DNA from: Pontiellaceae bacterium B12219
GTDB lineage: Bacteria > Verrucomicrobiota > Kiritimatiellia > Kiritimatiellales > Pontiellaceae
Direction: 5' to 3'
DNA length: 33,589 nucleotides
Assembly: GCA_029432795.1 (NCBI GenBank)
Contig: JARNMJ010000050.1
Coordinates: forward strand, 1 to 33,589
Part shown: positions 2,659 to 28,452 of the stretch, piece after piece
Position numbering within the stretch: the stretch's first letter is position 1
Layout: each line of letters starts with the position of its first letter
Program-made: the position numbers and the translations under genes
Notes under the pieces: generated by a model
The model's database searches: none
Told to the model about the DNA's origin: nothing
Seen by the model: only the letters and a program-made list of their open reading frames with translations

Positions 2659-5220
2659 TTAAATGGAACGATAGGCCGCGACGAGATAGAGATCCTGATC
2701 AGGCATCGTTACTTTGGTAGAAGCCGCCTTCGGATCCGCTACGGCCTTACCGCCGCCGATCCAGCGATCAAAGACCAGCCCCTCTTTTGCCGGCCCGGCC
2801 GTGATGGTCAGCACACGCCCGACTTCGACGGACCTGGCCGAACCCTCCCCGCCGGAAACCTTCAGTTCATAGTCCGTAAAGTTACGGAAGGGAGCCGCAG
2901 GAAAGCCCGCCCGATTATAAAGCTTATTCGGGGCATCCGGCGTGTTGTGATAGCAATAGCGCACATACACCGGTTTCGAAACCCCGGGGCTGGACACCAG
3001 CACGGTTTCTCCATCGATCGTTGCGTCAGCCTTGTGAAAAACCTTATCGGCTCCGGCCAACTCAAAATTCTGAAGAGCTGCATCCGTTTCCGCCGGCGGT
3101 TCGCGCCCGTTTTTCACCGCGGAAATCAACCCGCCCTCTGCATGATCAAAATGAACCCGCATCCTCGACCCTTCAACCGTTGCCTCGCGAAAGAGCGGAC
3201 TGGAATAAACGAGGTCGCAGCCCAGATCCTGTGCGAGCGCCCAGGCGGCCAGACGGTTCCCCACATCCTCTTTATTGGTCGGGTGAACATCGCGATTATT
3301 GCCGATATCAATGGTGACTGCCATGCCCGTATCCGGCTCTTCCAGAAACCGCTCCTGCGCTTCACGGAACCGGGCCCAATCGGCCTTGGTGGTATAATTC
3401 GGCAACTGGACAAAATAGAACGAGAACCGTTCCTGATTCCATTTGACGCGCCACCCGCGAACCAGCGCCGCCATATGAAGCCGGTAGAGGTCCGCGCCCA
3501 TCCGGCCGGCATCGGCCTCGCCCTGATACCACAGAGCACCGCGTACGCCATAGGGACTCATCGGAGCAATCATGGCATTGTAGTTGGAGAAGTAATAGGT
3601 CAGAACGCGGTCATCGATATCCATCGACACCCCGCCCAGCGACGGAACGGCATCGATTCCTTCCGGTGCAATGAACTCCCGGATCGGACGCCCGCCCCAG
3701 GCGGCATAGAGCAGACCGACGGGTTCGCCGGTAACCGCCTGTATCGCCTTGGCCGTAAAATAGCCCGTTGCGGTAAACTCCCCGGCGATGGATGAATGGC
3801 AGCGCGACCACGTGTATTCAACCACCGGATCGCTCTCCTCTTTCGACGATTTACGGTGCGCCATCTTGATCTGACGAATCAGCGGATGGTTGGCCTGCAC
3901 AATGTCTTCACCCAGCATCAGGCCGGTGAGCGTTCGATCCATATTAGATTGTCCGGAGCAGATATAAACATCCCCGAAAACCACATCGTTCAAAACCAGT
4001 GCATTTTCGCCGGGCGTTGAAACCGTCAGCGTATGTACCACTCCGCCGTCGCCGGCATGTGCTCCGATCCGCGCCAGCCAGTTGCCCCGGGCATCCGCCG
4101 TAGCGGTCGCAACCGGCTGACCATCCAGATTCAAAGCAACAGCGGATCCAGCCGGAGCAGTTCCCCACACCGGCACATTCATATCCCGCTGCAGTACCAT
4201 GAAATCATCAAACATGACGTCAAGTTTCAGCGACGACTCAGATTCAACGGCCACCGGCGTCTTCTCACCAGCTTTCACGCGAAGCGTATCCGGAGAACCG
4301 GAACCATCGGTATCGACAAAAGAAAAACTCCAGATGGATGCGTCAACGGTGGGCGCCAGTTTCAACCCATAATCAACCAGCATGCCTTCCCAGTGCATGA
4401 CGTCCCATTCGCCCTTTTGCTTGGCATCCAGAAAACCGACATCCAGCAATGCACCGTCACAAAAGAGCACATTCCCGTCGCCATCCAGCGGGTCCTGCGT
4501 GTCATCAATAAAAATGGGGGTTATTCCGGATGTCGCAATGCGGCACTTCAGCGTACCGCCGGTTTGCTGAAACCATGCCCCGTCGCCGGAAGCATAACTG
4601 CCGATACGAATGTCCGAAGCGTTATTTCCAAGCACAGCAAAGGTTCCATACGAAGAAATGAGAACATCCGTACGCGTCTGCAACGAGCCTCCGGAAATTT
4701 CAAAAAGCCCTTTTGCACGTCGATCGCTATCCCCCAATCGCAAGCTGTAGTGAGCCACTGCGCCGCTAACCGTCAGATCCCCGCCAGAGAGGATTACACG
4801 CCCCTGACTTTGGGAGTGTCCCATGCCAAGCTGAAGCGCATTAATCGTCGCAGTGCCGCCCGTCATTCGGTAGGTCCCGCTGTGCTTGTTGCCGCCCAGA
4901 CGGCTTGCACCATGCCCAACAGAATGCGCGTTAAGCGTGCCTCCCGTCTGCACCAACTCACCATCCCCCTCCGAATAACCGATTCGCAGTCCTGCAAAAT
5001 TGGGCGTTGTTCCGCTGGAGAGTGTCGCTTTCCCTGCTGCGGCGGTTCCGACGATTACATAATTATTGCCTCCAACGGGCGCCTCATTCCAGTTCGCGGG
5101 TTGATTAAAGTCATCATCGCCCCTGCTGTTCGTCCAACGATATTCCGCAGCATGAGAAACCGTTGCACCCAGCAGTGCAATCACCAGAGCCATCCGACCG
5201 TACATCTTTTTTTTATCCAT
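2659..5220 (-). CDS. Secreted sialate-O-acetylesterase-type protein with N-terminal beta-solenoid module
   Basis: A longer open frame reaches 5700, but it runs back through the esterase gene at 5432-6253. I therefore take the ATG at 5220 (853 residues), where AAGGA lies nine bases upstream and a signal peptide follows (MALVIALLGATVSHA); an ATG at 5226 is possible. Residues about 20-317 form a Gly-rich repeat module with many TGGT and SGGS turns, ending in SIWSFSFVDTDGSGSPDTLR. Next is the Ig-like MVLQRDMNVPVWGTAPAG segment and an SGNH-type esterase domain. SGQSNM (near residue 421) supplies the Ser, GALWYQGEADA is the conserved oxyanion block, and DVHPTNK (near 644) supplies Asp and His. The C-terminal 60 residues resemble an InlB B-repeat (VFDRWIGG and MPDQDLYLVAAY). 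It probably removes acetyl groups from polysaccharide; true sialate is unlikely. Confidence 0.88.
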   Translation of the reverse strand: MDKKKMYGRMALVIALLGATVSHAAEYRWTNSRGDDDFNQPANWNEAPVGGNNYVIVGTAAAGKATLSSGTTPNFAGLRIGYSEGDGELVQTGGTLNAHSVGHGASRLGGNKHSGTYRMTGGTATINALQLGMGHSQSQGRVILSGGDLTVSGAVAHYSLRLGDSDRRAKGLFEISGGSLQTRTDVLISSYGTFAVLGNNASDIRIGSYASGDGAWFQQTGGTLKCRIATSGITPIFIDDTQDPLDGDGNVLFCDGALLDVGFLDAKQKGEWDVMHWEGMLVDYGLKLAPTVDASIWSFSFVDTDGSGSPDTLRVKAGEKTPVAVESESSLKLDVMFDDFMVLQRDMNVPVWGTAPAGSAVALNLDGQPVATATADARGNWLARIGAHAGDGGVVHTLTVSTPGENALVLNDVVFGDVYICSGQSNMDRTLTGLMLGEDIVQANHPLIRQIKMAHRKSSKEESDPVVEYTWSRCHSSIAGEFTATGYFTAKAIQAVTGEPVGLLYAAWGGRPIREFIAPEGIDAVPSLGGVSMDIDDRVLTYYFSNYNAMIAPMSPYGVRGALWYQGEADAGRMGADLYRLHMAALVRGWRVKWNQERFSFYFVQLPNYTTKADWARFREAQERFLEEPDTGMAVTIDIGNNRDVHPTNKEDVGNRLAAWALAQDLGCDLVYSSPLFREATVEGSRMRVHFDHAEGGLISAVKNGREPPAETDAALQNFELAGADKVFHKADATIDGETVLVSSPGVSKPVYVRYCYHNTPDAPNKLYNRAGFPAAPFRNFTDYELKVSGGEGSARSVEVGRVLTITAGPAKEGLVFDRWIGGGKAVADPKAASTKVTMPDQDLYLVAAYRSI

Positions 5221-5347
5221 TATCATTTTTCCTTCATTACACCTTTCAATAAAATGCTGAGTACTTCGGTGCTTATTCCGGTCAAAGGCCCCAAATACAC
5301 GCATTAAAACGCTCACAATCGGCATTGCTTTACCGCTCTTCAGATAA

Positions 5348-5377
5348 ATTACAATTAATTTACATCCACATTTACAA
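5348..5377 (-). promoter_or_regulatory. Candidate promoter for the 2659-5220 esterase gene
   Basis: The 205 bases between the two esterase genes include an AT-rich patch. On the minus strand TTGTAA (5372-5377) and TGTAAT (5348-5353) are spaced by 18 bases and would give a leader of about 115 bases before the ATG at 5220. The match is modest. The rest of the gap shows no gene. Confidence 0.25.
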
Positions 5378-5431
5378 AATATCCGCATTAAAGCAAATGG
5401 GTAGACGGTTAATTCACCGGGTTGAAAATAC

Positions 5432-6253
5432 CTAATGCTGAAACTGCTGATCAATAAAATGCATCTGCCGCTGGATCGCATCGTTCCAATAGCCCCACGT
5501 ATGACCGCCGGGCATCTCGGTGTAGCCATGCTTGATCCCTGCGTCCAGCAGTTGCTGGTGCAGCACCCGGTTGACCTCAATAAAAAAGTCTTCGGAACCG
5601 CAGTCGATCGATATGGCAAGCTCGCCATCCTGCAACGCCTTGGCCTGATTGATGACCGTATAGGTTTCCCAGTTTTCCGGATGGGTCTCCACATCACCAA
5701 TCCGCTTTTTTATATCCCACTTTCCGGGAAACGGACGGATATCCACCCCACCGCTGAGCGGCACCGCCACGCTGAACACATCGGGATGGCGAATGGCCAG
5801 AAAAAGGGCTCCATGCCCGCCCATACTGTTCCCGGACAGCGCGCGACAGCTGCGCTCTGCTTTTGTGCGGTAGTTATGATCCATATGCGCCACACACTCT
5901 TTAGCCACAAAGGTTTCATACTTATAGGCCGGATCGACCGGACTGTCAAAATACCAGCTGGTTCTTCCGCCATCAGGACACACAATAATCACACCGTAAG
6001 TATCGGCCAGTGGTTCCACATCGGTCTTATCAACCCATTTCCGGTGCGTATCCCCGGCTCCGTGCAGCAGATACAACACGGGATAACGCTCCGAGCCCGT
6101 TTGATATTCATCCGGCAAAATCAACGTGGCCGGAATTTCCCGTCCCATGATTTCACTTTGAATCATAATGGTTTCCACGCTCGCAGCCCGACCGACACAA
6201 ACAACCAGTACAGCCAGCAGCAGTCCTGTCCAAATCTTACATTGCATCTTCAT
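5432..6253 (-). CDS. Secreted esterase, esterase D / feruloyl-esterase-like family
   Basis: The 273-residue protein has a signal peptide (LLLAVLVVCVGRAAS) and an alpha/beta-hydrolase fold. The oxyanion segment is YPVLYLLHGAGD (near residue 60) and the nucleophile elbow is GNSMGG (near residue 143). A C-terminal MPGGHTWGYWNDAI supplies the His near residue 250, and the acidic residue is probably in DCGSEDFF. This is the Pfam Esterase (PF00756) pattern, shared by esterase D, feruloyl esterases and acetyl xylan esterases. Those enzymes hydrolyse carboxylic esters on sugars. The ATG at 6253 follows GGAG by ten bases. It sits between two sialate-O-acetylesterase-type genes, which points to an ester-decorated substrate. 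The exact acyl group cannot be read from the sequence. Confidence 0.88.
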   Translation of the reverse strand: MKMQCKIWTGLLLAVLVVCVGRAASVETIMIQSEIMGREIPATLILPDEYQTGSERYPVLYLLHGAGDTHRKWVDKTDVEPLADTYGVIIVCPDGGRTSWYFDSPVDPAYKYETFVAKECVAHMDHNYRTKAERSCRALSGNSMGGHGALFLAIRHPDVFSVAVPLSGGVDIRPFPGKWDIKKRIGDVETHPENWETYTVINQAKALQDGELAISIDCGSEDFFIEVNRVLHQQLLDAGIKHGYTEMPGGHTWGYWNDAIQRQMHFIDQQFQH

Positions 6254-6417
6254 TAGCGGTATTCTCCAATCACTTAATCTATCTGTCCGTATCCACTTCC
6301 CATCCGTGAGGCATGACGCCCCCCATGCGTTCCTTTGTCATAACCCCGCCGGCCGGGAAGCTCCTTATCGCGACAGGGCCCAACCACAAGACACGATAAT
6401 GATGTGTATACCATCTA

Positions 6418-9400
6418 CTATAATCCTGCAGGAGGCAGAGTCGAATTAGCAGTTCCGCGGAGGTAATAAAATGGTGCCTGCAGCGGATCATCTTCCAGCA
6501 TGATTTCTTTCAGCTTCCCGTCGCCGGTCACATTATAGCGAAAGGGAATCCAGGGACCTGTTACAAGGTTGGTGGAACTGTCTACCGTGTACTGGTGATC
6601 GGCGAGGCTGATGAAACCCAGCAGGATATTTGTGGGGGACACGTCAAATGCTGTGACATCTACTTTTGAAAATGCACGGTCTTCCGCTGTTTTGTAAACC
6701 GCAGTGAGACTGACGTTGCCTGACGGCATGCGCAATGTGGTGCTGGCGGCGTTCACATTGACCACAGTCTGCGTATCGCCGGACCAAACATCAAAAACCT
6801 GACCGGCAGGTGCTTCGGCCGCTTCTATATTAATAATCGAACCGGACTGCGAGGTTCCCCCGCCATAGCCGTTGTTCACAGTGATCGAATAGCTCGTCTC
6901 CGATATTGAGCGGTAGCTGGCCAGCAGATACAGATCATGATCCGGCATTGTAACTGTTGTAGACGACGCATTGGGATTGGCAATCGCGGAGGCAGCACCG
7001 ATCCATCGATCAAAGACCATCCCGCCGGCTGGTGAATCAGCGGTAATTCCGATCGCTGTACCTTCAACCACCTCAGTGGCCGAGCCGGTGCCGGCATAAA
7101 CTTCCAGTTCATAATCGGCATCGGTGCGAAAGGGCGAGGCCGGGAACCCGGCGCGGTTATACAGTTTGTTCCCCCCGACCGGGGCGTTGACATAGCAGTA
7201 ACGTACATAAACGGGATCTGCGACGGATGCAGCGGAGACCAGTACGGTATCGGCATCGATGGTTGCAGTGGCACTGACAAAAACCTTATTCGCCCCGGCG
7301 ATCTCGAAGTTTTCCAATGCACCGGCGGTTTCAACAACCGGATCTTCTCCACTCTTTGTTCCGACCATCAGGCCGCCGTCGGCATGATCAAAAAGGATAC
7401 GTATTTTCGATCCTTCTACAACCGAACCGTAGAACAACGGACTGCTGTAGGGAATCTCATAGCCCAGCTCATTCGCCAGCGCCCAGTGAGCCAGGCGATA
7501 CCCGGGATCCTGCTTATTGGTCGGATGAATATCGTTGTCGTTACCCACATCGATAATGACGGCCATACCGGTATCGGGCTCCGTAATCGAACGTAACTGC
7601 GCTGCACGCAGAATCGGCCAATCAGCGCTGGTGTTAAAGTTGCAAAGCTGAACGGAATAGAAGGAGAAATCATCCTGCGCCCATTTTGAACGCCAGCCCC
7701 GAATGAGGGCCCGCATTTTTAGCTGATAGATATCGCCGTCACCACTGCCGGCATCCTGCTCACCTTGATACCAGATCGCGCCACGCACGCCATAGGGCGC
7801 CATCGGAGCAATCATGGCATTATAGATGTCGTAGTAAGAACTGATCTTTCCGTTCTCAATATTCTGAAGCATGGCGGACAAAGCGGGAACCGCCGCCATG
7901 CCTTCCGGATTTATAAAACGCTGAATCTGCCGTCCGCCCCACGCGGAGAAGAGCAGCCCAACCGGTTCTCCGGTGATGGCCTGCACCTTCTTTGCAAAAT
8001 AATAACCCACTGCGCAGAACTCGCCAGCGACCGCCGGAGTGGAGGACATCCAGCTATAAAGCGTGTCCGGGTCGTCCAGTTCAGAGGAGGATGTATCCAA
8101 CTCAACTTTGACCTGCCGGATCAACGGATAGTTTGCCATCGCGATTTCCGGGAGCGCTCCAATACCTTCAAGGGTCCGCGCCATATTGGATTGACCGGAA
8201 CAGATGTAAACATCACCGAAAACCACGTCTGAAAGCACCACATCAACTTCGTCCGGCGTTGAGACCGTCAGTGTGTGAGCCACACCACCATCACCCGGAT
8301 AGGATCCGATACGCGCCGTCCATTTTCCAGAGCTGTCAGCGGTCGGAGCGGCCACCGTTACGCCATCAAGTTTAACGGTTACCACGGCACCGGCCGGCGC
8401 CGTCCCCCAGACGGGGACATCGATATCGCGTTGCAGTACCATTTGATTCTGGAACATTTTACTCAGGATCAGTTGAGGCGGCGTAACGGTTGAACTGTGG
8501 ATGTCAATTTCCTGATAGACGGTTCCCGAATTCTGACCATCATCCATAAAAATGAATCGAACCTGATCCACATCGCCGGCCAGAACCCCGGCGGAATTGC
8601 TCAGGCTGACTTTCGTTGCTCCGGCGGTGCCACTGGTAAACGGCATATATTCAACCGCTTCCAATAAGGAAAACCCAGTACTGCCCACTTTGCTGACCCA
8701 GACTTCATATTTTTGATTGGCGAGGTTCGCACCGTCGCTTGCCGCACCGGCGAGCGTGGTGATTCCGGTGATATCATATCCGCCCGGATTCAGTTCCGTA
8801 TTCAACGTGAAGGTGTTGGTGGCGGGAAATTGTCCGGTGGAAAAACAGGCGCCGTCCAGGGAGCCATCGTTGAAGCCCGACGCGCCCGTAACCGGTACAG
8901 GAAACTGCATTTCAGACAAGAAGGTTTTCTGTCCGTCGTTAATGTAGTCGTTCGTGCTGACGCTGCTGCTGAAGGCATTGACGTCGAAGTCGTATTCGGC
9001 ATCCACAGCAATGCTGCCGGTTTTGACGCGCAGCGTATCCGGCGCGCCGGATGAATCGGTGTCGACAAATTCAAATCCCCAAACCGAAGGATCAACGCCC
9101 GGTGCGAAGGTCAGCCCGAAATCCGTCAGCGTACCATCCCAGCTCATCACATCCCATTCGCCCTTCAGCGGAGCCCCCAGAAAGTCAACATCAAGCAGTG
9201 CTCCATTGCTGAAGGTGACATTACCAAACCAATCGCCGGAACCCTTATCCGCAACGACAATCGGGGTCAGCCCGCCGCTGTCGATACGCACCTTGAGCGT
9301 GCCTGCGTTCTGAACCCAACGCCCATCAACGGATCCGCTTGTACCGATCCCTATGCTGCTCGCCGCACTGCCGTTGACCGTAAAGGTACAATCGTCATCG

Positions 9401-9954
9401 AGCAAAACGCCGGTCCGGGTAACGAGGGAGCCGCCCGAAATTTCGAAATGGCCGATCCCCCCGGTGCCGATGTGAAGGCTATAGTTGTTAACTCCGCGAG
9501 CGATGCTCATAGCCCCGTTGTTGATTATAAGATTACCGGTGCCGCCACCGAGCCCCAGCTGAATGGCGTTGATGGAGGCTGTCCCTCCATTCATCGTCCA
9601 TGTTCCGGTTTCGCCATTGCGCCCAACGCGGGTGGCGGCTCCCGAGTTGTAGGTGGCGACCAGTGAGCCGCCGGTCTGTTCAAATTCGCCATCGCTCCCC
9701 TCGTAACCAATATGCAATCCCGAGAGGTTGGCAGACGTTCCGACGCTGAGCACGGATTTATCAGATCCCGTCTTATCAATATTCCAGTAGTTGTTTCCTG
9801 CGGCGGGCTCAATATCCCAGTTGGCGGCCGTGATGAAATTATTGTCGTTGAGGTTGTTTTCCCAGTTATACGTTGCGGCACAGGAATCCGTTGCGCTCAG
9901 CAATGCAACAGCCAGGGCCATCCCGCCATAAACCATTTTATTTTCCATCATCAT
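6418..9954 (-). CDS. Large secreted sialate-O-acetylesterase-type protein, five domains
   Basis: The protein has 1178 residues. The ATG at 9954 follows GAGG by five bases; two more ATG codons follow directly and are alternative starts. After a signal peptide (MALAVALLSATDSCA) come five parts. First is the Gly-rich beta-solenoid module (about 27-315). Second is a jelly-roll-like insert (about 320-490) absent from the 2659-5220 protein. Third is the MVLQRDIDVPVWGTAPAG Ig-like segment. Fourth is the SGNH esterase domain with SGQSNM near residue 585, GAIWYQGEQDA near 720 and DIHPTNK near 808. Fifth are two InlB-like repeats (VFDRWIGA and VFDVWSGD), then a tail with the sequence YTVDSSTNLVTGPW that is common at the ends of secreted PVC proteins. 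It is a paralogue of 2659-5220, so two acetylesterases bear the same targeting-like module. The start overlaps the stop of the decayed gene at 9951-10414. Confidence 0.9.
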   Translation of the reverse strand: MMMENKMVYGGMALAVALLSATDSCAATYNWENNLNDNNFITAANWDIEPAAGNNYWNIDKTGSDKSVLSVGTSANLSGLHIGYEGSDGEFEQTGGSLVATYNSGAATRVGRNGETGTWTMNGGTASINAIQLGLGGGTGNLIINNGAMSIARGVNNYSLHIGTGGIGHFEISGGSLVTRTGVLLDDDCTFTVNGSAASSIGIGTSGSVDGRWVQNAGTLKVRIDSGGLTPIVVADKGSGDWFGNVTFSNGALLDVDFLGAPLKGEWDVMSWDGTLTDFGLTFAPGVDPSVWGFEFVDTDSSGAPDTLRVKTGSIAVDAEYDFDVNAFSSSVSTNDYINDGQKTFLSEMQFPVPVTGASGFNDGSLDGACFSTGQFPATNTFTLNTELNPGGYDITGITTLAGAASDGANLANQKYEVWVSKVGSTGFSLLEAVEYMPFTSGTAGATKVSLSNSAGVLAGDVDQVRFIFMDDGQNSGTVYQEIDIHSSTVTPPQLILSKMFQNQMVLQRDIDVPVWGTAPAGAVVTVKLDGVTVAAPTADSSGKWTARIGSYPGDGGVAHTLTVSTPDEVDVVLSDVVFGDVYICSGQSNMARTLEGIGALPEIAMANYPLIRQVKVELDTSSSELDDPDTLYSWMSSTPAVAGEFCAVGYYFAKKVQAITGEPVGLLFSAWGGRQIQRFINPEGMAAVPALSAMLQNIENGKISSYYDIYNAMIAPMAPYGVRGAIWYQGEQDAGSGDGDIYQLKMRALIRGWRSKWAQDDFSFYSVQLCNFNTSADWPILRAAQLRSITEPDTGMAVIIDVGNDNDIHPTNKQDPGYRLAHWALANELGYEIPYSSPLFYGSVVEGSKIRILFDHADGGLMVGTKSGEDPVVETAGALENFEIAGANKVFVSATATIDADTVLVSAASVADPVYVRYCYVNAPVGGNKLYNRAGFPASPFRTDADYELEVYAGTGSATEVVEGTAIGITADSPAGGMVFDRWIGAASAIANPNASSTTVTMPDHDLYLLASYRSISETSYSITVNNGYGGGTSQSGSIINIEAAEAPAGQVFDVWSGDTQTVVNVNAASTTLRMPSGNVSLTAVYKTAEDRAFSKVDVTAFDVSPTNILLGFISLADHQYTVDSSTNLVTGPWIPFRYNVTGDGKLKEIMLEDDPLQAPFYYLRGTANSTLPPAGL

Positions 9955-10414
9955 TTTTTCCTCAGCTGTACATTTCCGACCGAATGGAAACAGACTGCAT
10001 AAACGTGATCATTCTCCACCCTGACACAAAATGTCAGCAAACCGGTTACCTTCAGATTTTCCAGGACCACTCGCTGAGGAGCCGATGTGGCCTCCTGATT
10101 GCTCCACAGCACTTCCTGCTTCACATCGCCGCCCCACAGACGGAGCGTCACCAAATTGGGCTTCTCCGGATCACATTTCAGCGTAACGGCTAAACCGCCC
10201 TCCACCTGAACCATACGCGGCCCGGCTCACCCATACCGCCCTTAATCAGCGGCGCCAGATTAGCCTCCACGTTATGCAGTGACTCCAATGCCGCATTCCT
10301 GAAAACCACAGAATCCAGCAGGTCGGTGGGAGCCAATGCTGCATGGCTGTTTAAACCGTCAGCTGAAGCGGAAAAAACAATCCCTAAAACAAACCGTCGA
10401 AATTGAATGCTCAT
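9951..10414 (-). pseudogene. Decayed secreted-protein gene, frameshifted and shortened
   Basis: The ATG at 10414 overlaps the TAA of the GH95-like gene by one base (TAATG), as in a coupled operon gene. It begins a signal-peptide-like stretch (MSIQFRRFVLGIVFSAS) followed by DLLDSVVFRNAALESLHNVE. The frame ends at 10190, but the next frame continues without a break of sense at about 10211. There VQVEGGLAVTLKCDPEKPN leads to VTLRLWGGDV and ends at 9951. Segments of the form CDPEKPN...VTLRLWGGD occur in N-terminal regions of large secreted glycosidases such as GH127/DUF6805-type proteins, from memory. Only about 150 codons remain, so most of the gene is gone. It could instead be two tiny real genes, but the smooth join and the coupled start favour decay. 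Confidence 0.55.
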
Positions 10415-12678: not shown

Positions 12679-12717
12679 TAAAGTCTCCAGTATTTTCATT
12701 TTCTATTTACGGGGAAA

Positions 12718-18617: not shown

Positions 18618-18696
18618 AACCCTCTCTCCACACTCAACGATTTTCTGCTTTTCCCTCCCCGGCGCCTGTCGGCAAAGGAAACGCCGTGATGGAAAT

Positions 18697-19599
18697 TTAT
18701 GTTTTAATACGAATATCGCCGCAAACCTCTTCAATCTCAATAAAGGTCGGCCGCTCATCCGGGGTCTTGTTGGGACTGTGGAAGGTCAACATGAGTTGCT
18801 CATCAAACGTACGGAAAATCATTCCATGCCCGCCGTCTTTCTTCCATAACGGTTCCTCTTCCTGAATCCAAGGTCCGCTGATGGTTCCCGATTCCGACCA
18901 AGCAAAGCCCATGGCATAACCGGAGTCGCCCGTGCTGGACCAAAGCATGATGAGTTTTCCATCGGCCATTCGGTGCACAAACGGACCGTCTGTAACATAG
19001 GCGGGCATACGATGCCGTTCCCCATCCCCCTCTTCCGACCAGGTCTTGAGCGGACGCACCCAGGAAGCTTCCGTCGCATCAAAAAGAAAGACCGGTTTTC
19101 CATCGGCCGTTTTTAAATCGGGCGAGAGCGGCATGGCGCAGATGGAGCCATTGTGAATCTGCGTCCACTCATGACAAAAAACAATCCATGGCTTGCCGTC
19201 GTCATCCACAAACAGCGTACCGTCGAGGCACTCCCAATTGTGCGGCGTCACCGGTCCATCTGTGAGCGGTTCATAGGGGCCCTCGATGGAATCCGAAACC
19301 AGAATCTGCGTTCCGCGATACCGCTTGTCCGCTTTGAAAGTCGCAAACATATAGAACTTGCCATTGTAGGCGTGCACTTCCGGCGCCCAATAGTTTTTCG
19401 TGGCCCAGAAATTTTCCGAAGGTCGGAACGCCGCGATCGGCCCCTCCCACTCCTCCAGATCGTTGCTCTTATAACAATCAAATCCGGTACCCGGCGGCAG
19501 CCAGCAGTTTTTATCGGTCGTGCCGAACATGTAATACATGCCCTCTTCTTTCATTGTCAGAATGAAGGGATCACGGATCTGAATTTCGTTCGTTTTCAT
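18697..19599 (-). CDS. Glycoside hydrolase family 43, cytoplasmic
   Basis: The 300-residue protein is a single five-bladed beta-propeller domain with no signal peptide, unlike nearly all its neighbours. IRDPFI near the start supplies the general base Asp10. [11 protein letters not shown] (about 124) supplies the second Asp, and HGMIF near residue 258 supplies the conserved His. At the usual catalytic-acid position the sequence is TDGPFVHR (Asp204) rather than the EGP form with Glu. GH43 enzymes release arabinose, xylose or galactose from side chains. The cytoplasmic location suggests that it finishes imported oligosaccharides. AAGGA lies five bases before the ATG at 19599. The 235 bases upstream hold remnants of another gene rather than a clear promoter. 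Confidence 0.88.
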
Positions 19600-19815: not shown

Positions 19816-19834
19816 AAAGCTTTCAAACAGTGTG

Positions 19835-22117
19835 TTAGTCACTTAATCCCCAACCCCGATTGAGATGATATTTTTTATCAACCGCCCCGATGGTATACGG
19901 ACCTTTATAAGCCGCATCATAAATAACCACCGATTTTCCCTTCGGAATCGCCAGTTCAATCAAACCATTTCCCAGTTGTTTCACGTCTTTTGCATCAAGT
20001 CCCTTCACGCTGATTTCGCCTTCGATACCGGTTTGCAGAAGACAAGGCGTACCGGCCAGACTCTCAACAGAAATAAAGGCGGTCCTTCCACTCTTCCGAA
20101 CCGCACTCACCAGAAAGGCCCCCTCTGTGCGAAGATCGGCGAAGGAGACGTCCGGCCATTTGGACGGAATGGCGGGGAACACCACGATTTTATCGTTCCA
20201 GCTCTGGATCAGCATGTCCTCGATCGAACGGGCGCCAGCGGGCGGTGTTTCCAACACCGGAGACCCTTCGGTGTAGAACGTGTTCGGCAGTACCTTGTCG
20301 TCAAAGAAATCCTGCAGGCGCTGTTCCCCCATATCGCCATCGCCGAAGAGCGAAAACATTGAAGAAGAGCCGGTGTAGGAATAGCCCTGCAAGGCTTCCG
20401 GCAGACTCTGCCAATGCAACAGCGATTTCATTGCCAGTTCCCGTTCTGCGGGATCATCCAGATCCATAGTGCTCAGCGGATAGATCATCATCAGATGCGA
20501 ATAGTGGCGGTGCGATTTTGCGTAAGGCTTGTCCTTCCCGATCATGAAACCGGTTTCATCCACCGGATAGGGCGTGAGTCGATTCAGCATATCTTCCCAC
20601 GTCGGCAGCAACGGATCATTGATATCCAGAATTTCACAACACTCAATCAGCGTTTCACATCCCCAGCGCAACAGGGCCAGATCATAGGTGCAATCCTCCG
20701 CTTCCCCGTATTCCGGCGAACTGGTTTCCGGCAAATGAATCATTCCATCTTCGCCTTCTATCATGATGTGGCGGTAAAAGTTGATAGAGCGCTTCAGCAG
20801 CGGGAAGATCTTTTCTCGCAGCAGTTCTTCATCCATCGTATAGCGATACTGCATGTAGCAGTTATGCATCGCCCAGGTCAGGTTGCCGGTGGTCACACCG
20901 CGCCGCTGTTTCGGATCGTTCGGGTCGGCAACCGGCGAGATAAGATCCTGGCCGGAAACCACATTGATCGCCGCCGAATCGTGGCGCATGCCTTCGGGCA
21001 CATTGTTCGCCAGATTATCGCGATATTTCCAGAGCTGGTTGATCAGCCCCTCCGACAGTTCCGGATGATTGCCCGGCAGCATGTGGGAATAGGCGAGTTG
21101 AATATTGAGGTTCCACCAACAGGCCGGCCAGCCGGACGTGGAATTCATCCACACGCCCATATTATCTGCCAACAGGGTTCCGCCCTTCGTGGTACTCGCC
21201 ATCTTGTAATGCTGAATCCAGAGAAAGCTTTCCATTCGCGCATCGGGGAGCGAAACAAAGCTCTTCGGATAGAATGCATGCCACCAGGCACGATGCCCTT
21301 TCAGCAGCTCTTCCAGCGATTTTTTCTGTCCGAAGATGACGTCGGCAGATGCATGGTGCTGCGCATTTTCATCCGGATAGGTATGGCCGACGCTTGCCAG
21401 CAGCGTTTTCGTATTTCCATCTTCTTCAATGCTCCAGACCGTAGCCGTCTGACCGCCGCCGTGGAGCTTCTGGATGCAGGACGTATAGTCCTTGTCTTCT
21501 TTCATTTCCGGAGGCGGGTTTCCGCAGTATTCCCACTTATGACTCTCTCCATGAATCTTGCGCCCGCCGCGTGTTCTCGGACAAAAGGCTTCCTCCGGAT
21601 GCCACGTATAGTCGAAATCGGCGTCACCCTTATCCGCAACCGTTTTAACCACCAGCAGGTTTTTCTCCGAATGGATAAATGCCAGAATATTGAGTTTGCC
21701 GCGATCCGTGGTAATGGTTCCGGAAATTTCCGCATCCCATAGATTCAGGCGCAGGTTGCACCCGGTGATTTTTCCCACTGTATCCAATGTGAAATAACCC
21801 ACCGGCAGGCGCGATGAATCCGGCAGCGTATTACCCATCGCATGTTTTCCAGACTGCGAGCGATGTTCCTGCACATCGCCCCGGCCGATCTGAATAGTGA
21901 GTTGGTTTTCCGAGGTTTGGAAAATCATCGACCCCATCACGCCGTTACCGATAAACGGGGCTTCAGTCCAAAGCTGCGGCAACGCAGTAAAATAGAGATC
22001 CTGTTTCGCCATATAGGAAGGCCAATCCACATTCACCTTCACCGCGGCAGCTCCGCTCATGGTCAACCCCATTAACAGTCCGGCGACCAAAACAGTCCGC
22101 CAGTATATTCCTCTCAT
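19835..22117 (-). CDS. GH95-like secreted glycoside hydrolase, copy B
   Basis: I use the ATG at 22117 (760 residues), with GAGAGGAA immediately upstream and a signal peptide (VLVAGLLMGLTMSGAAA); an ATG at 22132 is a weaker alternative. The product is collinear with copy A (10414-12678) along its whole length. It has APFIGNGVMGSMIF, WNLNIQLAYSHMLPGNHPEL, SSPEYGEAEDCTYDLALL, SHRHYSHLMMIYPL and the closing segment GPYTIGAVDKKYH. The catalytic Asn pair and the acid Glu of GH95 are kept, while the DGNFG motif is again replaced, here by ETPPAG. Long stretches of near-identical DNA with copy A (for example around 20168-20220 and 10751-10803) indicate duplication within the locus. A 15-base palindrome lies 20 bases upstream of the start. 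Confidence 0.82.
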   Translation of the reverse strand: MRGIYWRTVLVAGLLMGLTMSGAAAVKVNVDWPSYMAKQDLYFTALPQLWTEAPFIGNGVMGSMIFQTSENQLTIQIGRGDVQEHRSQSGKHAMGNTLPDSSRLPVGYFTLDTVGKITGCNLRLNLWDAEISGTITTDRGKLNILAFIHSEKNLLVVKTVADKGDADFDYTWHPEEAFCPRTRGGRKIHGESHKWEYCGNPPPEMKEDKDYTSCIQKLHGGGQTATVWSIEEDGNTKTLLASVGHTYPDENAQHHASADVIFGQKKSLEELLKGHRAWWHAFYPKSFVSLPDARMESFLWIQHYKMASTTKGGTLLADNMGVWMNSTSGWPACWWNLNIQLAYSHMLPGNHPELSEGLINQLWKYRDNLANNVPEGMRHDSAAINVVSGQDLISPVADPNDPKQRRGVTTGNLTWAMHNCYMQYRYTMDEELLREKIFPLLKRSINFYRHIMIEGEDGMIHLPETSSPEYGEAEDCTYDLALLRWGCETLIECCEILDINDPLLPTWEDMLNRLTPYPVDETGFMIGKDKPYAKSHRHYSHLMMIYPLSTMDLDDPAERELAMKSLLHWQSLPEALQGYSYTGSSSMFSLFGDGDMGEQRLQDFFDDKVLPNTFYTEGSPVLETPPAGARSIEDMLIQSWNDKIVVFPAIPSKWPDVSFADLRTEGAFLVSAVRKSGRTAFISVESLAGTPCLLQTGIEGEISVKGLDAKDVKQLGNGLIELAIPKGKSVVIYDAAYKGPYTIGAVDKKYHLNRGWGLSD

Positions 22118-22136
22118 AACTTCCTCTCCCATATTG

Positions 22137-22185: not shown

Positions 22186-23436
22186 TTAGTTCGATAACTT
22201 CAAACGCAGAAACCGTTTCCAATGATTGGAAATCAGCTCGGTGTCCTCCACCGTCACGGCCCCCGTGGTATTCGACGTTCCGGTACTCAACCAAATCGTG
22301 TTCCAATCATTGGAAACTAAACTGGAAGACGTTGCTTCCACCCAATAGGTCAGAGTCGGATCAGCAATGCGGTCGAAGGTTACGGTCATCCTGGAACCGG
22401 AAATTCCAAGGATTGGAAGCGCATTACTGTTGAAACCATTCGGATCCAATCCGGCCCCGTACTCGATCAGGTTGCTGAAACCATCCCCATCCGGATCAGC
22501 TGCATCGGCTGCGTCCCCTGTATTGGAATAGGTTCCGAACCGGTCGAATCGCCACTGTTCCAGTGCGGAATAGGCCGCAGGAGCAAACTCCAGATAAAGA
22601 TCTCCAGCAGATTCCGAAATTGAAAACATACCGCCGTCCAGCTCGAAGGCCGAAGCATCGATGGTGAAGTTTTCAGCCGCAAAACCCGATACGCTGCCGG
22701 CCTCGACCACTTTCCAGACATTGGAAACTCCGGTATTAATTCCGGCAACATCCGCAGGCAGCACAATCTGGAAGGCGTCGCCGGCAAACGTCAGCGTTCC
22801 GCCAATCCTCAGCGGCTCATTAAAGTCAACGGTAAGTCCTGCTCCATCCTGAAGGATTACATTCCCGCTGAGCATACCCGTTCCGCCGAGCTGCCCGGCA
22901 TTCACAACCGTGTCTTCGCTATGGTTGCAGACCCCGTTGAGAAAGAGCGTTGTACCCGCACCGTTTTTCACCACGGCAATCCGCCCCGCAATGGTTCCGT
23001 CAAATGAACTGTCTTCCGTTGAGCTGTTCACCGTTAGCGTCTGTGTGGAAGCCGTTGAGGTGGTGGTCACCGCGCCGCTCCCGCTCAAGGATCCGATGTT
23101 GGCACTGAACGCATTGGCATCGGCAGCTCCGCGATCATTCAGGCAGAGTGTGCCCTCCAACACGGTGCTGTTTGCAGTCCCCTGATTAACCGCCCAGTTT
23201 CCGTTAAAAGCAAACTCGGCACCGGCGGCAATCTCCAGATCGTTACGGACATTATTCGAACGTGCACGCACTTTTCCTTCCAGTATTCGGAAACGTCCGT
23301 CAAAAGAAGCACTCTGCTCCATGGTCAGCTGACCGGCACCGATTTTGGTCAGGTTGCCCGTTCCGTAGATATTTCCGACCAGCAGTTCGTTACCTGCAAT
23401 GCCGACCCCGATCGAGGCATCGCCCAACAGGTTGAG
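22186..23436 (-). pseudogene. C-terminal part of the beta-helix protein, downstream of an in-frame amber codon
   Basis: This stretch continues in exactly the same frame as 23437-26094, separated only by the TAG at 23437-23439. It resumes with LNLLGDASIGVGIAGNELLVG. The pattern LVGNIYGTGNLTKIGAGQLTM is the autotransporter-associated beta-strand repeat. It is followed by more beta repeats, a Ca-binding-like DAADPDGDGFSNLIEYGAGLDP and a C-terminal tail with LTYWVEAT and ending HWKRFLRLKLSN. On its own it lacks a signal peptide and a good start, although a TTG at 23427 could be read. It is best seen as the 3' part of one gene of about 1302 codons (22186-26094), broken by a nonsense change or by a base-call error. 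Confidence 0.8.
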
Positions 23437-26094
23437 CTAACCACTGCCGGAACAGAGGCGGGTGCTGGTATCATTTTTTCCATCGGAATAGACCGCCCCC
23501 TGCCCGTCGTTGCCATCGCCCAGCAGGTAGATCGTTTCCCCCTGCAGCCCAAAGCCGGCTTCCACTTCGAGCGTGCCGTTACTGACAACAGTTCCACCGC
23601 CCCCGAGTCCGCCCAGCGAATCGTCGCGGTCGACCAGAAGCGTACCATCGAACACGACAACCGGAGCACTCGGGACGATTAGATTTCCAGAACTGTCGTA
23701 TTGCGCCCAGCTCACATTGGTCGGATTCGACGGCGTGGTCCAGGTGTCTTCATATTCAATCTTTGCCGGCACCAAGGTGGTACCGACATATTCGTTTCCA
23801 CTTCCTTTATTAATGACACCGGCGGTCGAAACACAGCCGGTATTTCCGGTGGCATTCGGACCGAACACCATAATCTGTCCGGTCAGATTGGTGACAAAAT
23901 TTCCGCGGGAATATTCCTGAATGTTGTTTCGGTAATACGCATCCAACCCACCGTCATTTCGATGCCGCCACTCGCGGAATTTTTGCGACAGGTTTACGTA
24001 AGCACCCGGGGAATAGACCCCCGGCGATGCGGAGCTGGTCAAGGTGATCCGGCTGTCGTCGCCGCTGATCAGCGCAATCGGCCATACGCCGTGGCCGGGT
24101 GTGTCGCCGGTCAGCTCGATCTCGATATCGGCCGGATAATCAACCGAACGCTGGAAAAAGAGCAGCGGACCGTTCAGGGCATCGCCCTTGCAGCGCTTGA
24201 TTGTTGTTTCGGTTCCATTTCCCGACGGCGAATAGCCCATTTCATTTTCTACCAGCACGGTATCGTACACCCGTAAATAGCCGCTGGCATCGGCGCAGCC
24301 GATCGCCTGTCGCATACGAGCAACATAGCAGTTGGTGATCGTGATATTTTCAACAAAGTACGGATAGCCATTCTCCGCTTCCTGACCATTCGGATACACG
24401 CGAAACGCATCTTCGTGGCGGGAGATTCGGATGTCTTCGGGAATGGGGGCATCATAGGTGGCATGACCCCACTTCTGATATTCGGGGTGAGCAATGATGA
24501 TGTCTGAATCCACCATTTCGTCGCCCAGCACCTTGCAGTCTTTAAAGAGAATATCCTTCACACCGCGCTGCATATAAAAGCCATGACCGTAGCTGCGCAT
24601 ATTGAGCGTGACGTTATCCACCACGACATTGGTTGCACCATACGTAATCAGAAACCCGCTCTGTTTATAGTGGGTCATCCAGGCGGAATCGGTTACGCCG
24701 TCCGTATTGGGGCGCGTGCCCTTCCCGAACGCGTCACCGTAGCCATAGGGGTGCGAGCCGCCGGAGGTGAATTCACAGTTTTTAATCACCGTATCCGACC
24801 CGGTCACCACCACAATATTTCCGCCGCGGTCGGCATGATATTCTTTCGGATTCCCATAGCTGTCGGTTCGGCCATTGTTCGGAATCTTCACCATCGTCAA
24901 CGTCAGACCATCCACAACGACTCCGTCGCCGCTTACATTTAAAACATTAACCTCTGTTTGGGAATTGTACCCCGGAAGCTGATCCGTGTTCATTTTGATT
25001 TCAACACCGGTCAGATTAAATGTGTTGTTCGACCCGCTGAATTCAAGAAAGTCAGGTCCTGCGCCGTCGTTCATCCAATAGGTTCCCGGCGTCATCGTAA
25101 TCGTTAAATTACTCTCTTTGGCATACTGACGAAGCGCGGCAATGCTGTTAACTGTCACGTTTGTGATTTGGATGGGATCGCCAACGGCCGTTACGGTGAG
25201 CTTTTTCTGGGCGTTATCCAGATTAAAGCTCCAGATATCCGTATCGACGCCCGGAGCAAAAACGAGCCCGTTATCAGTCAGATTTCCTTCCCATTCCATC
25301 ACTGTGAAGGTTCCGCCATTGGTGAATGCTCCGGCAAAATCCACATCGAGTTCACAGCCGCTTTCGAATGTAACATCGCCACCGCCGTCATCGTTGTAGT
25401 CTTCAATAAATATAGGCGTCACGCCGGTTGTGGTTTGGTCAATCTGCACACGCAATAAAGCGCCTGAATCCTGCGTCCAACTGCCATCCGTGGTTCCGGC
25501 GGTTCCGATTCCAATGGAAGTCGCTGCAGAGCCGACCACGGCAAAGATCCCTCCATCATAGATCCGCGCCGTTCCATCCGTATTGAAGCTTCCTCCGCTG
25601 ATGGTCATCGTGCCGGTTGCACCACTTTCGCCCACCGTAAACTTTCCGCGCCCATTGATTATTGTTCCGCCGCTGAGATTAAAAATGCCGGTGCATCCAG
25701 AGCCGATCCCAATGGCCAGATCCTGATTGATTTGCCACATGCCACCGCTTTGATTGATGACACCGGTATTTCCATTTTGGCCGAGTCGCGTATCGCCGCT
25801 GCCCCGGTTGCATTGGAGTGTGCCGCCGGTAAAATCGAGCTGCCCGTCGCCATGAATCCCCACGCGGATATCGTCGACCGATACCGTGCCGGAACTCATA
25901 ATCGCCCGGTCGTTCCCATTCAGACTGACATTCAGAAAGTTGTAGCCGCTGGATGAGCGCAACTGAAAATTATTCATATTCGAAAAATCATTATCGCCCA
26001 GCGCATTGCTCCAGTCCCATTCATCTGCCTGCACGGCAACCGCTCCGATGACCAATAGTGCGGCACCAATGATTTTAATTCCTCTGCGACTCAT
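23437..26094 (-). CDS. Secreted right-handed beta-helix protein (N-terminal part of a broken gene)
   Basis: The 885-residue reading frame starts at an ATG eight bases after GGAG and has a signal peptide (IIGAALLVIGAVAVQA). Residues about 25-303 form the same Gly-rich module as in three neighbours, closing with TDIWSFNLDN. Residues about 310-800 form a right-handed parallel beta-helix domain with repeated VVVTGSDTVIKNCEF, VVVDNVTLNMRSYGHG and ENITITNCYVARMR turns. Such folds occur in pectate-lyase-like lyases, epimerases and glycosidases. RHEDAFRVYP and SYGHGFYMQRG are conserved-looking but I cannot name the family. At 23437-23439 a TAG interrupts the frame, and the continuation lies at 22186-23436. 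As read, the product would lose its autotransporter-type repeats and C-terminal tail. The intrinsic terminator at 26127-26153 lies just upstream, so its promoter must lie in a short space or transcription must read through. Confidence 0.82.
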   Translation of the reverse strand: MSRRGIKIIGAALLVIGAVAVQADEWDWSNALGDNDFSNMNNFQLRSSSGYNFLNVSLNGNDRAIMSSGTVSVDDIRVGIHGDGQLDFTGGTLQCNRGSGDTRLGQNGNTGVINQSGGMWQINQDLAIGIGSGCTGIFNLSGGTIINGRGKFTVGESGATGTMTISGGSFNTDGTARIYDGGIFAVVGSAATSIGIGTAGTTDGSWTQDSGALLRVQIDQTTTGVTPIFIEDYNDDGGGDVTFESGCELDVDFAGAFTNGGTFTVMEWEGNLTDNGLVFAPGVDTDIWSFNLDNAQKKLTVTAVGDPIQITNVTVNSIAALRQYAKESNLTITMTPGTYWMNDGAGPDFLEFSGSNNTFNLTGVEIKMNTDQLPGYNSQTEVNVLNVSGDGVVVDGLTLTMVKIPNNGRTDSYGNPKEYHADRGGNIVVVTGSDTVIKNCEFTSGGSHPYGYGDAFGKGTRPNTDGVTDSAWMTHYKQSGFLITYGATNVVVDNVTLNMRSYGHGFYMQRGVKDILFKDCKVLGDEMVDSDIIIAHPEYQKWGHATYDAPIPEDIRISRHEDAFRVYPNGQEAENGYPYFVENITITNCYVARMRQAIGCADASGYLRVYDTVLVENEMGYSPSGNGTETTIKRCKGDALNGPLLFFQRSVDYPADIEIELTGDTPGHGVWPIALISGDDSRITLTSSASPGVYSPGAYVNLSQKFREWRHRNDGGLDAYYRNNIQEYSRGNFVTNLTGQIMVFGPNATGNTGCVSTAGVINKGSGNEYVGTTLVPAKIEYEDTWTTPSNPTNVSWAQYDSSGNLIVPSAPVVVFDGTLLVDRDDSLGGLGGGGTVVSNGTLEVEAGFGLQGETIYLLGDGNDGQGAVYSDGKNDTSTRLCSGSG

Positions 26095-26126
26095 TTCATT
26101 ATCTCCAACGACTCTTCAGCTTGTGG

Positions 26127-26153
26127 AAAAAAACAGGGCGACAAATATCGCCC
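26127..26153 (-). terminator. Intrinsic terminator after the beta-solenoid gene
   Basis: On the minus strand arms GGGCGA (26148-26153) and TCGCCC (26136-26141) enclose a six-base loop and are followed after two bases by seven T residues (26127-26133). This is the clearest rho-independent terminator in the window. It lies about 60 bases past the stop of the gene at 26215-28452 and separates that transcript from the beta-helix gene. Confidence 0.8.
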
Positions 26154-26171
26154 GTTCCTAGGTTTGGAACA

Positions 26172-26202
26172 CATGCTGTGCTTCAGTCCGAAGAACAGCA
26201 TG
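26172..26202. terminator. Long hairpin just upstream of the terminator
   Basis: The outer arms CATGCTGT and ACAGCATG and the inner arms CTTC and GAAG form a 12-pair stem with one mismatched pair and a five-base loop. It lies 13 bases after the stop of 26215-28452 and 19 bases before the terminator hairpin. It has no T-run on the minus strand and may protect the mRNA 3' end. Confidence 0.5.
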
Positions 26203-26214
26203 CGGTAGTGAGAA

Positions 26215-28452
26215 TTATTCTACACCGACCTCAAAGAATACAGTCGATGCTGATGGGATGCTCGAAGTCACCGATGTTTCGCCATCTTCGCCAATGATTC
26301 CGGCGGCCGCAACACCAGGACTTGGATACACCAGGCCGGTATTGGTAATGATGCTGTAGCTCTTGCCGGCAACGGATTGCCACGTCAGCACATAATCCGT
26401 ACCGATCGATCCCATGGAGGTAACCTTAAGAACCGAATTTTCATTCATCGGATCAGTCCCTGCAATATACTCCTCCCAGGTCAGCATACCGTCACCGTCG
26501 TTATCGATAATGTCATCTGCCGCATCCAGGCCATACTCATAGAGCCAGAGAATCGGCGTTCCATTTGCGGTTGTACCTGGATCAGCAATCACTTGCAGGG
26601 TGTCATTGGTCCCGTCATTATCACTATCTGCAAAAGCAAAGCTCCAGATGTCGGTATTTACATTCGTACCGAGTGTGAGACCTTCATCCACAAACTCACC
26701 GTTCCAGGTCATGACATCAAAGACTCCGTAATTGGTCACGCCGGCGGACCAGGCAACATCAATAATCGAATTCGATGCGAAGCTCACACCGCGATCCCCG
26801 TTGATGACAATCGGCGTGATGCCGCCACCGTCAACCGCCAGAGACAAGGTGCTTTCAGCTCCCTGATACCAATAACCATGAGCACTGGTAATGGTACCAA
26901 ACCCAAATGACGTAGCAGCGGACCCTTCCACATGCACTCTGCCGATACCCCCCTCCACGCCGACATAGGCGCCGAAGCGCGAATCAAAACTTCCCGCGGT
27001 AACGTTCAACTCTGCATAGCCGCCCGTTCCCCAGCCGAGAATCGCACCGGTATCAACCCCGTTGTACCGATATGCGGATGTCGATGTATAGGTTCCTCCG
27101 TTGATGTTAAAAGCCGCCGAAGCGGAATTCATGCCGGAGCGGAAATACTTCAGGTTCAGTGAACCACTATTCAGATTGAGTATTCCGCTTCCGCTGTATG
27201 CACCGAAGCCAATTGTCGCTCCTCCGGAAAAGTTCAAATCACCACTGTTCATGTTAAACACTCCGGAGCGGCGATCACCGATCAGCAGACTGTTTTGATT
27301 CGCTACAGTCCCGCCAACATAGTCAACAATCGAGGTGACAGCAGCATCCGGAACCAATAGGTAGTGACCGATTCTCCAGGTATCATCAGAGTAAACGCCC
27401 CAGGAGGCAGGCGTACCGCTCACATCTACAGCCCAGTTGTCCGCTTCGGTCGGGTCGGTTGTACCTCCCAGCCCGGTCCAATAGAGATCACGTGCTTCCG
27501 TCGGCGGCAGATTGGTTTCCGGTGGTGTAGAACCTACGCCATAGGTGAGCGCTAACGAATTATTCGTAACTGCAAAGCTCCAGATATTGAAATCAACATT
27601 GGTACTGAACTGCAGGCCGTTGTCCATCGTGTCTCCCTCCCAGGTCATCACTGTCCAGGTATTGGAAACCGGGGTAACGCCAGAAGCAAAATCAACGTCA
27701 AGCAACGCACCAAACGCAAACGTCACATCACCGCCACTGCCGTCATTGTCATAGTCCAGAACATGGATCGGAGTTACCCCGTTATCATCAATTCTGATTT
27801 CAAGCGTACCGCCGGTGCGCTGGTTCCAGTAGGAATCATTACTTGCATACGTACCAATCGTAATTGCAGTGGCATTGCTTCCATGCACTGCAAAGGTTCC
27901 GCTTCCGAAAATGTCCGCATAACCACGAGTACCGAATGAACCACCGGAAATCTCCATGCGGCCTACATTATTGGCTTCACCGATGGTAAATTTCCCGGCG
28001 TCATTGCGGACTTCGCCACCGCTGAGGTTAAAAGTCGCTTTGGATGCGGCACTGATACCGAGCGCCAGATCCTGGCCGATTTTCCAGAAGCCGCCGCTCA
28101 TATTCACCAAACCGTCATATCCATTCAACCCGATTCGGGTATCTCCGCTGCCGCGGTTACATTGCGTATAACCACCCGTGATTTCCAGCTCACCATCGCC
28201 GTGAATCCCGACGCGAATGTCCGAGACCACATTCGTCTCCCCCGCGCCGATGATCGCCCGGTTGGCATTCGTCAGGCTGATATTGCGGAAATCATAGCCG
28301 CTCACACCGCGCACGCTCCAGTTGTTGGTGTTTGAAAAATTATTATCCAACTGCGTATTTTCCCAATCCAACTCATCCGCATAAGCAGTGATACTGCCGA
28401 ACATTGCAATCAGTACCGCTGCTGAGCCTATATTCTTAATCATCGCTCTCAT
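26215..28452 (-). CDS. Secreted protein with two tandem beta-solenoid modules
   Basis: The 745-residue protein has GGAGGG just before its ATG and a signal peptide (AAVLIAMFGSITAYA). Residues about 27-305 are one copy of the Gly-rich module found in three other proteins here. It includes IRVGIHGDGELEITGG, the repeated SGG turns, GVTPIHVLDYDNDG and FNIWSFAV. A second, diverged copy fills about 320-625 and ends TDIWSFAFADSDNDGTNDTLQ. Then comes a Ca-binding-like DAADDIIDNDGDGMLTWEEY and a tail with KSYSIITNTGLV. I see no enzyme domain. The protein may bind a polysaccharide or coat the cell, but this is inference. It follows the PEP-CTERM gene by 65 bases and ends at a strong terminator, so these two genes probably form one transcript. 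Confidence 0.8.
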   Translation of the reverse strand: MRAMIKNIGSAAVLIAMFGSITAYADELDWENTQLDNNFSNTNNWSVRGVSGYDFRNISLTNANRAIIGAGETNVVSDIRVGIHGDGELEITGGYTQCNRGSGDTRIGLNGYDGLVNMSGGFWKIGQDLALGISAASKATFNLSGGEVRNDAGKFTIGEANNVGRMEISGGSFGTRGYADIFGSGTFAVHGSNATAITIGTYASNDSYWNQRTGGTLEIRIDDNGVTPIHVLDYDNDGSGGDVTFAFGALLDVDFASGVTPVSNTWTVMTWEGDTMDNGLQFSTNVDFNIWSFAVTNNSLALTYGVGSTPPETNLPPTEARDLYWTGLGGTTDPTEADNWAVDVSGTPASWGVYSDDTWRIGHYLLVPDAAVTSIVDYVGGTVANQNSLLIGDRRSGVFNMNSGDLNFSGGATIGFGAYSGSGILNLNSGSLNLKYFRSGMNSASAAFNINGGTYTSTSAYRYNGVDTGAILGWGTGGYAELNVTAGSFDSRFGAYVGVEGGIGRVHVEGSAATSFGFGTITSAHGYWYQGAESTLSLAVDGGGITPIVINGDRGVSFASNSIIDVAWSAGVTNYGVFDVMTWNGEFVDEGLTLGTNVNTDIWSFAFADSDNDGTNDTLQVIADPGTTANGTPILWLYEYGLDAADDIIDNDGDGMLTWEEYIAGTDPMNENSVLKVTSMGSIGTDYVLTWQSVAGKSYSIITNTGLVYPSPGVAAAGIIGEDGETSVTSSIPSASTVFFEVGVE

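Follow-up and report, generated by a model that had tools for sequence, protein, structure and literature searches.

The locus studied here raises a simple question: why should one non-catalytic part be reused across several exported proteins of a single polysaccharide-degrading gene cluster, and what does it do there? To our knowledge, it is not settled how Verrucomicrobiota and Kiritimatiellia hold their extracellular enzymes against large sulfated polysaccharides, and a recurrent part of this kind could bear on the problem.

Five copies of one module in four exported proteins

The window, i.e., the whole stretch of DNA that was analysed, is one contig of 33,589 bp from a Pontiellaceae genome of 4.75 Mb in total. 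It encodes five full-length copies of a module of ~290 residues in four exported proteins, all on the minus strand. The copies, as delimited by HMM envelopes, are listed with their scores against the module HMM and against an HMM made solely from non-window copies:

4270..5148, minus strand: module copy A, N-terminal in SASA-type esterase 1; HMM 434 bits, non-window HMM 289 bits
9019..9873, minus strand: module copy B, N-terminal in SASA-type esterase 2; HMM 423 bits, non-window HMM 281 bits
25189..26025, minus strand: module copy C, N-terminal in FdlA-type lyase; HMM 404 bits, non-window HMM 291 bits
27550..28377, minus strand: module copy D1, first module of a doublet; HMM 406 bits, non-window HMM 256 bits
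26581..27492, minus strand: module copy D2, second module of the doublet; HMM 355 bits, non-window HMM 189 bits

The initial annotation, made from the sequence alone, had placed the five copies at these sites, with coordinates that were right to within ~15 bases. Every pair of the four module proteins was recognized by BLASTP (30-54% identity, E 1e-18 to 1e-87). The non-window HMM, together with shuffled sequences, served as a control against a composition effect: the five window copies scored 189-291 bits, while 200 composition-preserving shuffles of each reached at most 9.9 bits. The landmarks proposed for the module, a W..NW start, a GxTPI strand and an xIWSF end, are present in the alignment of the window copies, and in general the module ends with a strand xWSF followed by a last hairpin. 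The DTDxxGxxDTL stretch that had been described as closing the module does occur in copies A, B and D2 (three of five), but with 15 of 81 copies overall it is not a general closing element.

The proteins and domains that surround these copies are the following:

2659..5226, minus strand: protein A, 855 aa; signal peptide, module, SASA esterase, InlB-like repeat
3244..3972, minus strand: SASA (PF03629) domain of protein A, E 1.2e-16
6418..9954, minus strand: protein B, 1178 aa; signal peptide, module, SASA esterase, InlB-like repeats
7519..8214, minus strand: SASA (PF03629) domain of protein B, E 1.6e-16
23437..26094, minus strand: protein C, first reading frame; signal peptide, module, FdlA-type fucoidan lyase
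24031..25173, minus strand: FdlA-type lyase domain of protein C, 7xzf_A E 1.8e-24
22186..23427, minus strand: continuation of protein C past a frameshift, uninterrupted in homologues
26215..28452, minus strand: protein D, 745 aa; signal peptide, two modules, C-terminal beta-sandwich, no enzyme domain
26218..26571, minus strand: C-terminal DxDxDG stretch and beta-sandwich of protein D, common to many proteins of the same genome
28518..29405, minus strand: small PEP-CTERM protein without module, 65 bp upstream of the gene for protein D; TIGR02595 18.7 bits, cut-off 16

Both fusions to sialate-O-acetylesterase-type (SASA) enzymes that had been proposed are real; the two esterases proved to be paralogues, 60% identical over 523 aa, one of which carries extra C-terminal repeats. 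The reading frame of protein A as called from a TTG at 5700 overlaps the neighbouring esterase gene (5432-6253). Because a signal peptide lies near 5226, the true start was moved there from the annotated position 5700.

Protein C had been described as a right-handed beta-helix protein. The fusion stands, but the module's partner proved to be a fucoidan lyase of the FdlA type, encoded by a gene with a frameshift. FdlA acts on sulfated fucoglucuronomannan, where it cuts the mannose-glucuronate linkage (PMC9410043), and its residues K141, H176, R240 and Y242, reported to be important or catalytic (PMC9410043), all align with identical residues in protein C, which on this sequence evidence is predicted to carry an FdlA-type lyase with a conserved active site. 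The frameshift lies near 23430, and both pieces match consecutive parts of uninterrupted homologues of 1306-1350 aa in loci L070, L085 and L090 (BLASTP); it is either an assembly error or a recent defect. Protein D is the doubled, enzyme-free protein of the initial annotation, with copies D1 and D2. Pfam and NCBIfam scans of the four window module proteins yielded neither a translocator beta-barrel family nor a cohesin or dockerin domain, and none of the four C-termini bears a PEP-CTERM tail.

The window also encodes three GH95 proteins, which, together with the FdlA-type lyase, point to a fucose-containing polysaccharide as substrate. Two of these GH95-like proteins (10414-12699 and 19835-22132) are similar to each other but divergent, and score far below the third (16284-18758) with the GH95 model. 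Two further, closely similar proteins (12773-16267 and 30601-33492) resemble alginate lyases or heparinases; the latter may be truncated, as it has no signal peptide and begins near the contig end.

The module forms a family of its own

With a 69-row profile we found 60 full-length copies (207-331 bits) among the 28 genomes of the genus, all of them in five genomes. The next match reached 98 bits and no other exceeded 77 bits; these were mostly partial and often restricted to profile positions 3-165, which suggests that the C-terminal half of the module is specific, whereas its N-terminal half is similar to other solenoids. In the phylum sample, 10 of 388 genomes contain the module. Related loci were sought with a 12-row module alignment, and named carriers include Haloferula rosea, Roseibacillus persicicus, R. 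ishigakijimensis, Pelagicoccus, Puniceicoccaceae 5H and two planctomycete MAGs, one of which has only the C-terminal half of the module, followed by PEP-CTERM.

Scans of the module against Pfam, NCBIfam and PHROGs gave nothing over cut-off. None of the 69 copies matched any Pfam domain except for the PEP-CTERM tail, nor any CBM family among the Pfam profiles; no viral homologue and, in the literature search, no paper describing the module was found. TIGR04393, the T5SS/PEP-CTERM-associated repeat, matched 6 of the 69 copies weakly (best E 5.6e-4), and the window copies remained at 6.6 bits or without match, below its cut-off of 23 bits. It is the closest named element, as a weak, below-cutoff relative. 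Like TIGR04393 and the PATR or autotransporter-type repeats, the module consists of glycine-rich right-handed beta-helix rungs, and some members of its family have PEP-CTERM tails; it differs from TIGR04393 in its fixed ends, its specific C-terminal half and its W..NW start. The module belongs to the broad group of PEP-CTERM/autotransporter-type beta-solenoids, yet as a family of its own.

We regard the module as a new domain family with an already known fold and PEP-CTERM context. Neither the profile libraries nor the literature searched contained the family with its boundaries, its recurrence on enzymes, on doublets and on proteins sorted by exosortase, or the link to FdlA-type enzymes. The HMM search that the initial annotation had suggested thus delineated a separate family with a list of partner enzymes and no match to a characterised domain. 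The likeness between the copies exceeds that of generic solenoids, and the core of the claim, one discrete, non-catalytic and unnamed module with common fold boundaries that is reused across exported proteins, was borne out.

A predicted compact beta-helix with some adhesive fold neighbours

In the AlphaFold2 model of copy C (33 alignment rows; mean pLDDT 96.1, pTM 0.93), the module is one rigid, compact right-handed beta-helix, and it is accordingly modelled as a discrete, autonomously folding domain of ~290 residues. Foldseek found no PDB match to this model at E<=1e-3. When its candidates were re-aligned (VIA-align), matches with Z 14-17 and 3.4-4.0 A at 7-14% identity extended over nearly the full length. 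These matches are to the C-terminal passenger parts of EspC, IcsA, pertactin, EspP and Ag43, as well as to tapirins (Z 14); the fold neighbours also include TibA and SRRP. The best matches, EspC 722-1002 (Z 17.1) and IcsA 426-740 (Z 15.7), have ends that coincide with those of the module; the IcsA autochaperone region (3ml3) matched with Z 9.0. Ag43, TibA, tapirin and SRRP are self-associating and adhesive proteins, and tapirins bind cellulose. In the PDB, 4peu/4phb, the cellulose/pectin-binding beta-helix Cthe_2159, was weakly matched by the 5-copy profile at E 1.3e-4, but the match was gone with the 69-copy profile; it was ascribed to Gly-rich composition and discarded.

In the less certain model of the whole doublet protein D (pLDDT 76), two solenoids are accompanied by a disordered linker and, at the C-terminus, a beta-sandwich. 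Conservation analysis of the module copies revealed no conserved catalytic-type residue set, so the module itself is probably no enzyme. Gly, Trp and aliphatic residues predominate at its best-conserved positions; conserved arginines are few (R153 in 59 of 69 copies), and all 81 copies have a net charge of -10 to -32.

Three architectures and a divided doublet

The module was found in about 65 distinct reading frames, which come from Pontiellaceae, from other Verrucomicrobiota and from a few planctomycetes and show three architectures; it nearly always comes first after the signal peptide (L089 g4 is an exception). The first architecture combines a signal peptide, one module and a PEP-CTERM tail (10 proteins by pattern); TIGR02595 is over cut-off in such proteins of L126, L102 and L072 and slightly below in L074 and L094. 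The second has two modules and a C-terminal beta-sandwich, with 11 doublets in the tree set including protein D, and in the third, one or two modules precede an enzyme. Three single-module proteins (L068 g6, L078 g5, L092 g5), which cluster as a single group in the tree, have no PEP-CTERM but a short hydrophobic C-terminus (..LGLLL, IGLIL). In five loci, the window, L074, L076, L084 and L085, the doublet gene is preceded by a PEP-CTERM gene at a distance of 65-92 bp. This upstream gene bears a module in L074, L084 and L085, and has none in the window and L076. The exosortase TIGR02602 is present in the genome of the window (161.7 bits, cut-off 105.6) and is over cut-off in 24 of the 28 congeners. 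Since the module occurs in five of these 28, we rejected it as a mark of all exosortase users.

The two halves of the doublet behave differently in the tree. All 11 second modules (D2) group together (SH-aLRT 86), whereas first modules, single-module proteins and FdlA fusions are intermixed; the window copies D1 and C are sisters (SH-aLRT 96). D1 modules are closer than expected to modules of their own locus (permutation p=0.005), and D2 modules are not (p=1). As judged from these sequences, the pattern fits a doublet with a constant half (D2) and a locus-matched half (D1), although local duplication would give the same pattern. The modules of alginate-lyase-like fusions form one group of nine across genera (SH-aLRT 99).

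Several side observations concern the ends and the neighbours of these proteins. Most module proteins without PEP-CTERM end in a stretch, observed at 26218-26571 of the window and in the C-termini of 33 module proteins, which the model of protein D renders as a beta-sandwich and whose last residues read much like F[FY][RKE][VIL]; 42 of 279 other long ORFs of the module loci have it too, and it may be another signal for sorting or secretion in these bacteria. Among the neighbours that recur, L074 g9, L082 g3 and L092 g9 as well as L071 g9 and L092 g8 have a membrane segment at the N-terminus (GAPSGFVISLLVHAAAFMLAGLLVVF and similar) and look, by eye, like TonB-type energy transducers. In L101, the sole such case seen, a module doublet is fused to a PQQ-type propeller-like sequence (by eye) instead of a polysaccharide-degrading enzyme.

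Most identified partner enzymes fit one substrate class

The main fusion partners are FdlA-type fucoidan lyases, alginate-lyase-like enzymes that carry CBM6/CBM35/Fn3, and one glycosidase-like family, putative glycosidases with CBM6 and F5/8 domains. Further fusions involve CBM96 plus beta-helix proteins and SASA esterases. Many of these enzyme fusions have CBM6, CBM35, CBM96 or LamG C-terminal to the module; no autotransporter barrel family was detected in those scanned, and none of the 69 module copies matched cohesin or dockerin in Pfam and NCBIfam. Most identified partners fit one substrate class, namely fucose/uronate-containing polysaccharide, and a general use of the module for unrelated substrates was therefore not argued from substrate diversity.

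Within the genus, FdlA homologues (counted at E 1e-20) occur in four of the five module genomes vs none of the 23 others (p=2.4e-4); the module genome without FdlA is 72% complete. Of the genomes in the phylum sample, six combine module and FdlA, four have only the module, four only FdlA and 374 neither. Co-occurrence thus amounts to 6/10 vs 4/378 genomes (p=9e-9, a statistic that ignores relatedness), and outside the genus p is about 1.3e-4. Genomes G125 and G217 have module copies with PEP-CTERM only, and FdlA is absent there at the threshold used. Compared with the widespread exosortase, this co-occurrence indicates that the module goes with one substrate apparatus, while exosortase sorting is background.

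What the module may do

We tentatively favour, among several readings none of which we hold to be probable by itself, a retention module that keeps seaweed-digesting enzymes at the cell surface or in its matrix, with location, binding and partner as we infer them. Pontiellaceae and some other marine Verrucomicrobiota place the module directly behind the signal peptide of enzymes for fucose/uronate algal polysaccharides. The exosortase-sorted single modules and the doublet would be located at the cell surface or in the extracellular matrix, where enzyme-borne copies would hold their enzymes, via module-module contact or a common matrix ligand, so that digestion could happen at the cell. This reading is favoured by the exosortase-sorted single modules, the operon partners and the doublets, by the CBMs on many enzymes, which make an additional substrate-binding role of the module less needed, and by its negative charge, which would suit it poorly to a sulfated polyanion. 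The self-associating and adhesive fold neighbours, the locus-matched D1 and jointly grouped D2 modules, and a clear family with fixed ends and a single rigid domain lend further support. The idea of a cell-surface role in the initial annotation thus gained new backing from single modules with PEP-CTERM tails, which in three loci adjoin the doublet gene, and its interpretation as a whole is partly supported.

A close, somewhat less probable reading is that every copy has one and the same fucose/uronate-containing algal polysaccharide as its ligand, as a CBM or surface glycan-binding protein would. PEP-CTERM and doublet proteins would then present the polysaccharide at the cell, and the enzyme copies would target the enzymes. 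Such binding would account for the association with FdlA-type genes in genus and phylum sample and for the fusion of the module to the same few enzyme families (mainly FdlA-type, alginate-lyase-like, glycosidase-like) across genera, and it is in keeping with tapirins among the fold neighbours and a few conserved arginines such as R153. It sits less well with the acidity of the module towards a polyanionic substrate, with fusions that often have CBM6/35/96 already, with the lack of any CBM family match, and with the PEP-CTERM-only copies of G125 and G217. Against the retention reading, the close tie to FdlA-type enzymes across distant genera is equally what a substrate-specific binding module or whole-cluster transfer would produce, the similarity of D1 to its own locus can come from local duplication, and fold matches show no function. 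Many loci, moreover, have no adjoining module-bearing PEP-CTERM protein; the window's neighbour has the tail and no module.

It is rather unlikely that the module is a passive stalk or a folding and secretion aid without ligand, like the C-terminal beta-helix or autochaperone of autotransporters, even though its best structural matches are such passenger segments (EspC, IcsA, 3ml3) with coinciding ends and its best-conserved residues are mostly structural. The module is N-terminal, the proteins scanned have no autotransporter barrel, and a pure stalk would account neither for single-module PEP-CTERM proteins that stand alone nor for the narrow link with a single set of enzymes. We give very little credence to common descent of generic glycine-rich solenoid repeats with local duplication and no shared purpose. 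The weak matches of profile positions 3-165 to many other solenoid proteins and of six copies to TIGR04393 would agree with it; the score gap (207 vs 98 bits), the full-length boundaries, the one-domain model and the recurrence of the module before the same enzyme families in distant genera speak against it.

Comparison with known systems

The right-handed beta-helix fold is shared with the C-terminal passenger helix of type Va autotransporters (EspC, IcsA, pertactin, Ag43). The module proteins differ in that no translocator barrel was found in them, the module is N-terminal, and they combine a signal peptide with PEP-CTERM or beta-sandwich ends. Exosortase and PEP-CTERM surface proteins form a known system (PMC1569441), to which the single-module proteins, with their signal peptide and PEP-CTERM tail, and the exosortase of the genome correspond; most module copies, however, lack PEP-CTERM and are fused to enzymes or doubled. 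CBMs and surface glycan-binding proteins of polysaccharide utilisation loci are likewise non-catalytic parts common to enzymes and enzyme-free exported proteins, whereas the module matches no CBM family, is acidic and often stands beside true CBMs. The analogy to dockerins drawn in the initial annotation holds as a functional likeness only: as in cohesin/dockerin systems, one non-catalytic part recurs on several enzymes and on a multi-copy enzyme-free protein, but here all partners carry one and the same module, and neither cohesins nor dockerins turned up in the window proteins or the module copies.

A bolder variant, which we consider doubtful, is that the module is the building block of an enzyme assembly without cohesins and dockerins, in which exosortase-sorted single modules and doublets form a surface scaffold where fucoidan enzymes dock. 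Contact would be from beta-helix to beta-helix, with D1 matched to the locus and D2 constant, and the enzymes of the anaerobic Pontiellaceae would dock through their own copy. As a clearly bounded, recurrent non-catalytic domain of enzymes, doublets and exosortase-sorted proteins, the module provides a testable candidate for how extracellular enzymes are held against large sulfated polysaccharides, and it may serve as a marker for further FdlA-type fucoidan loci.
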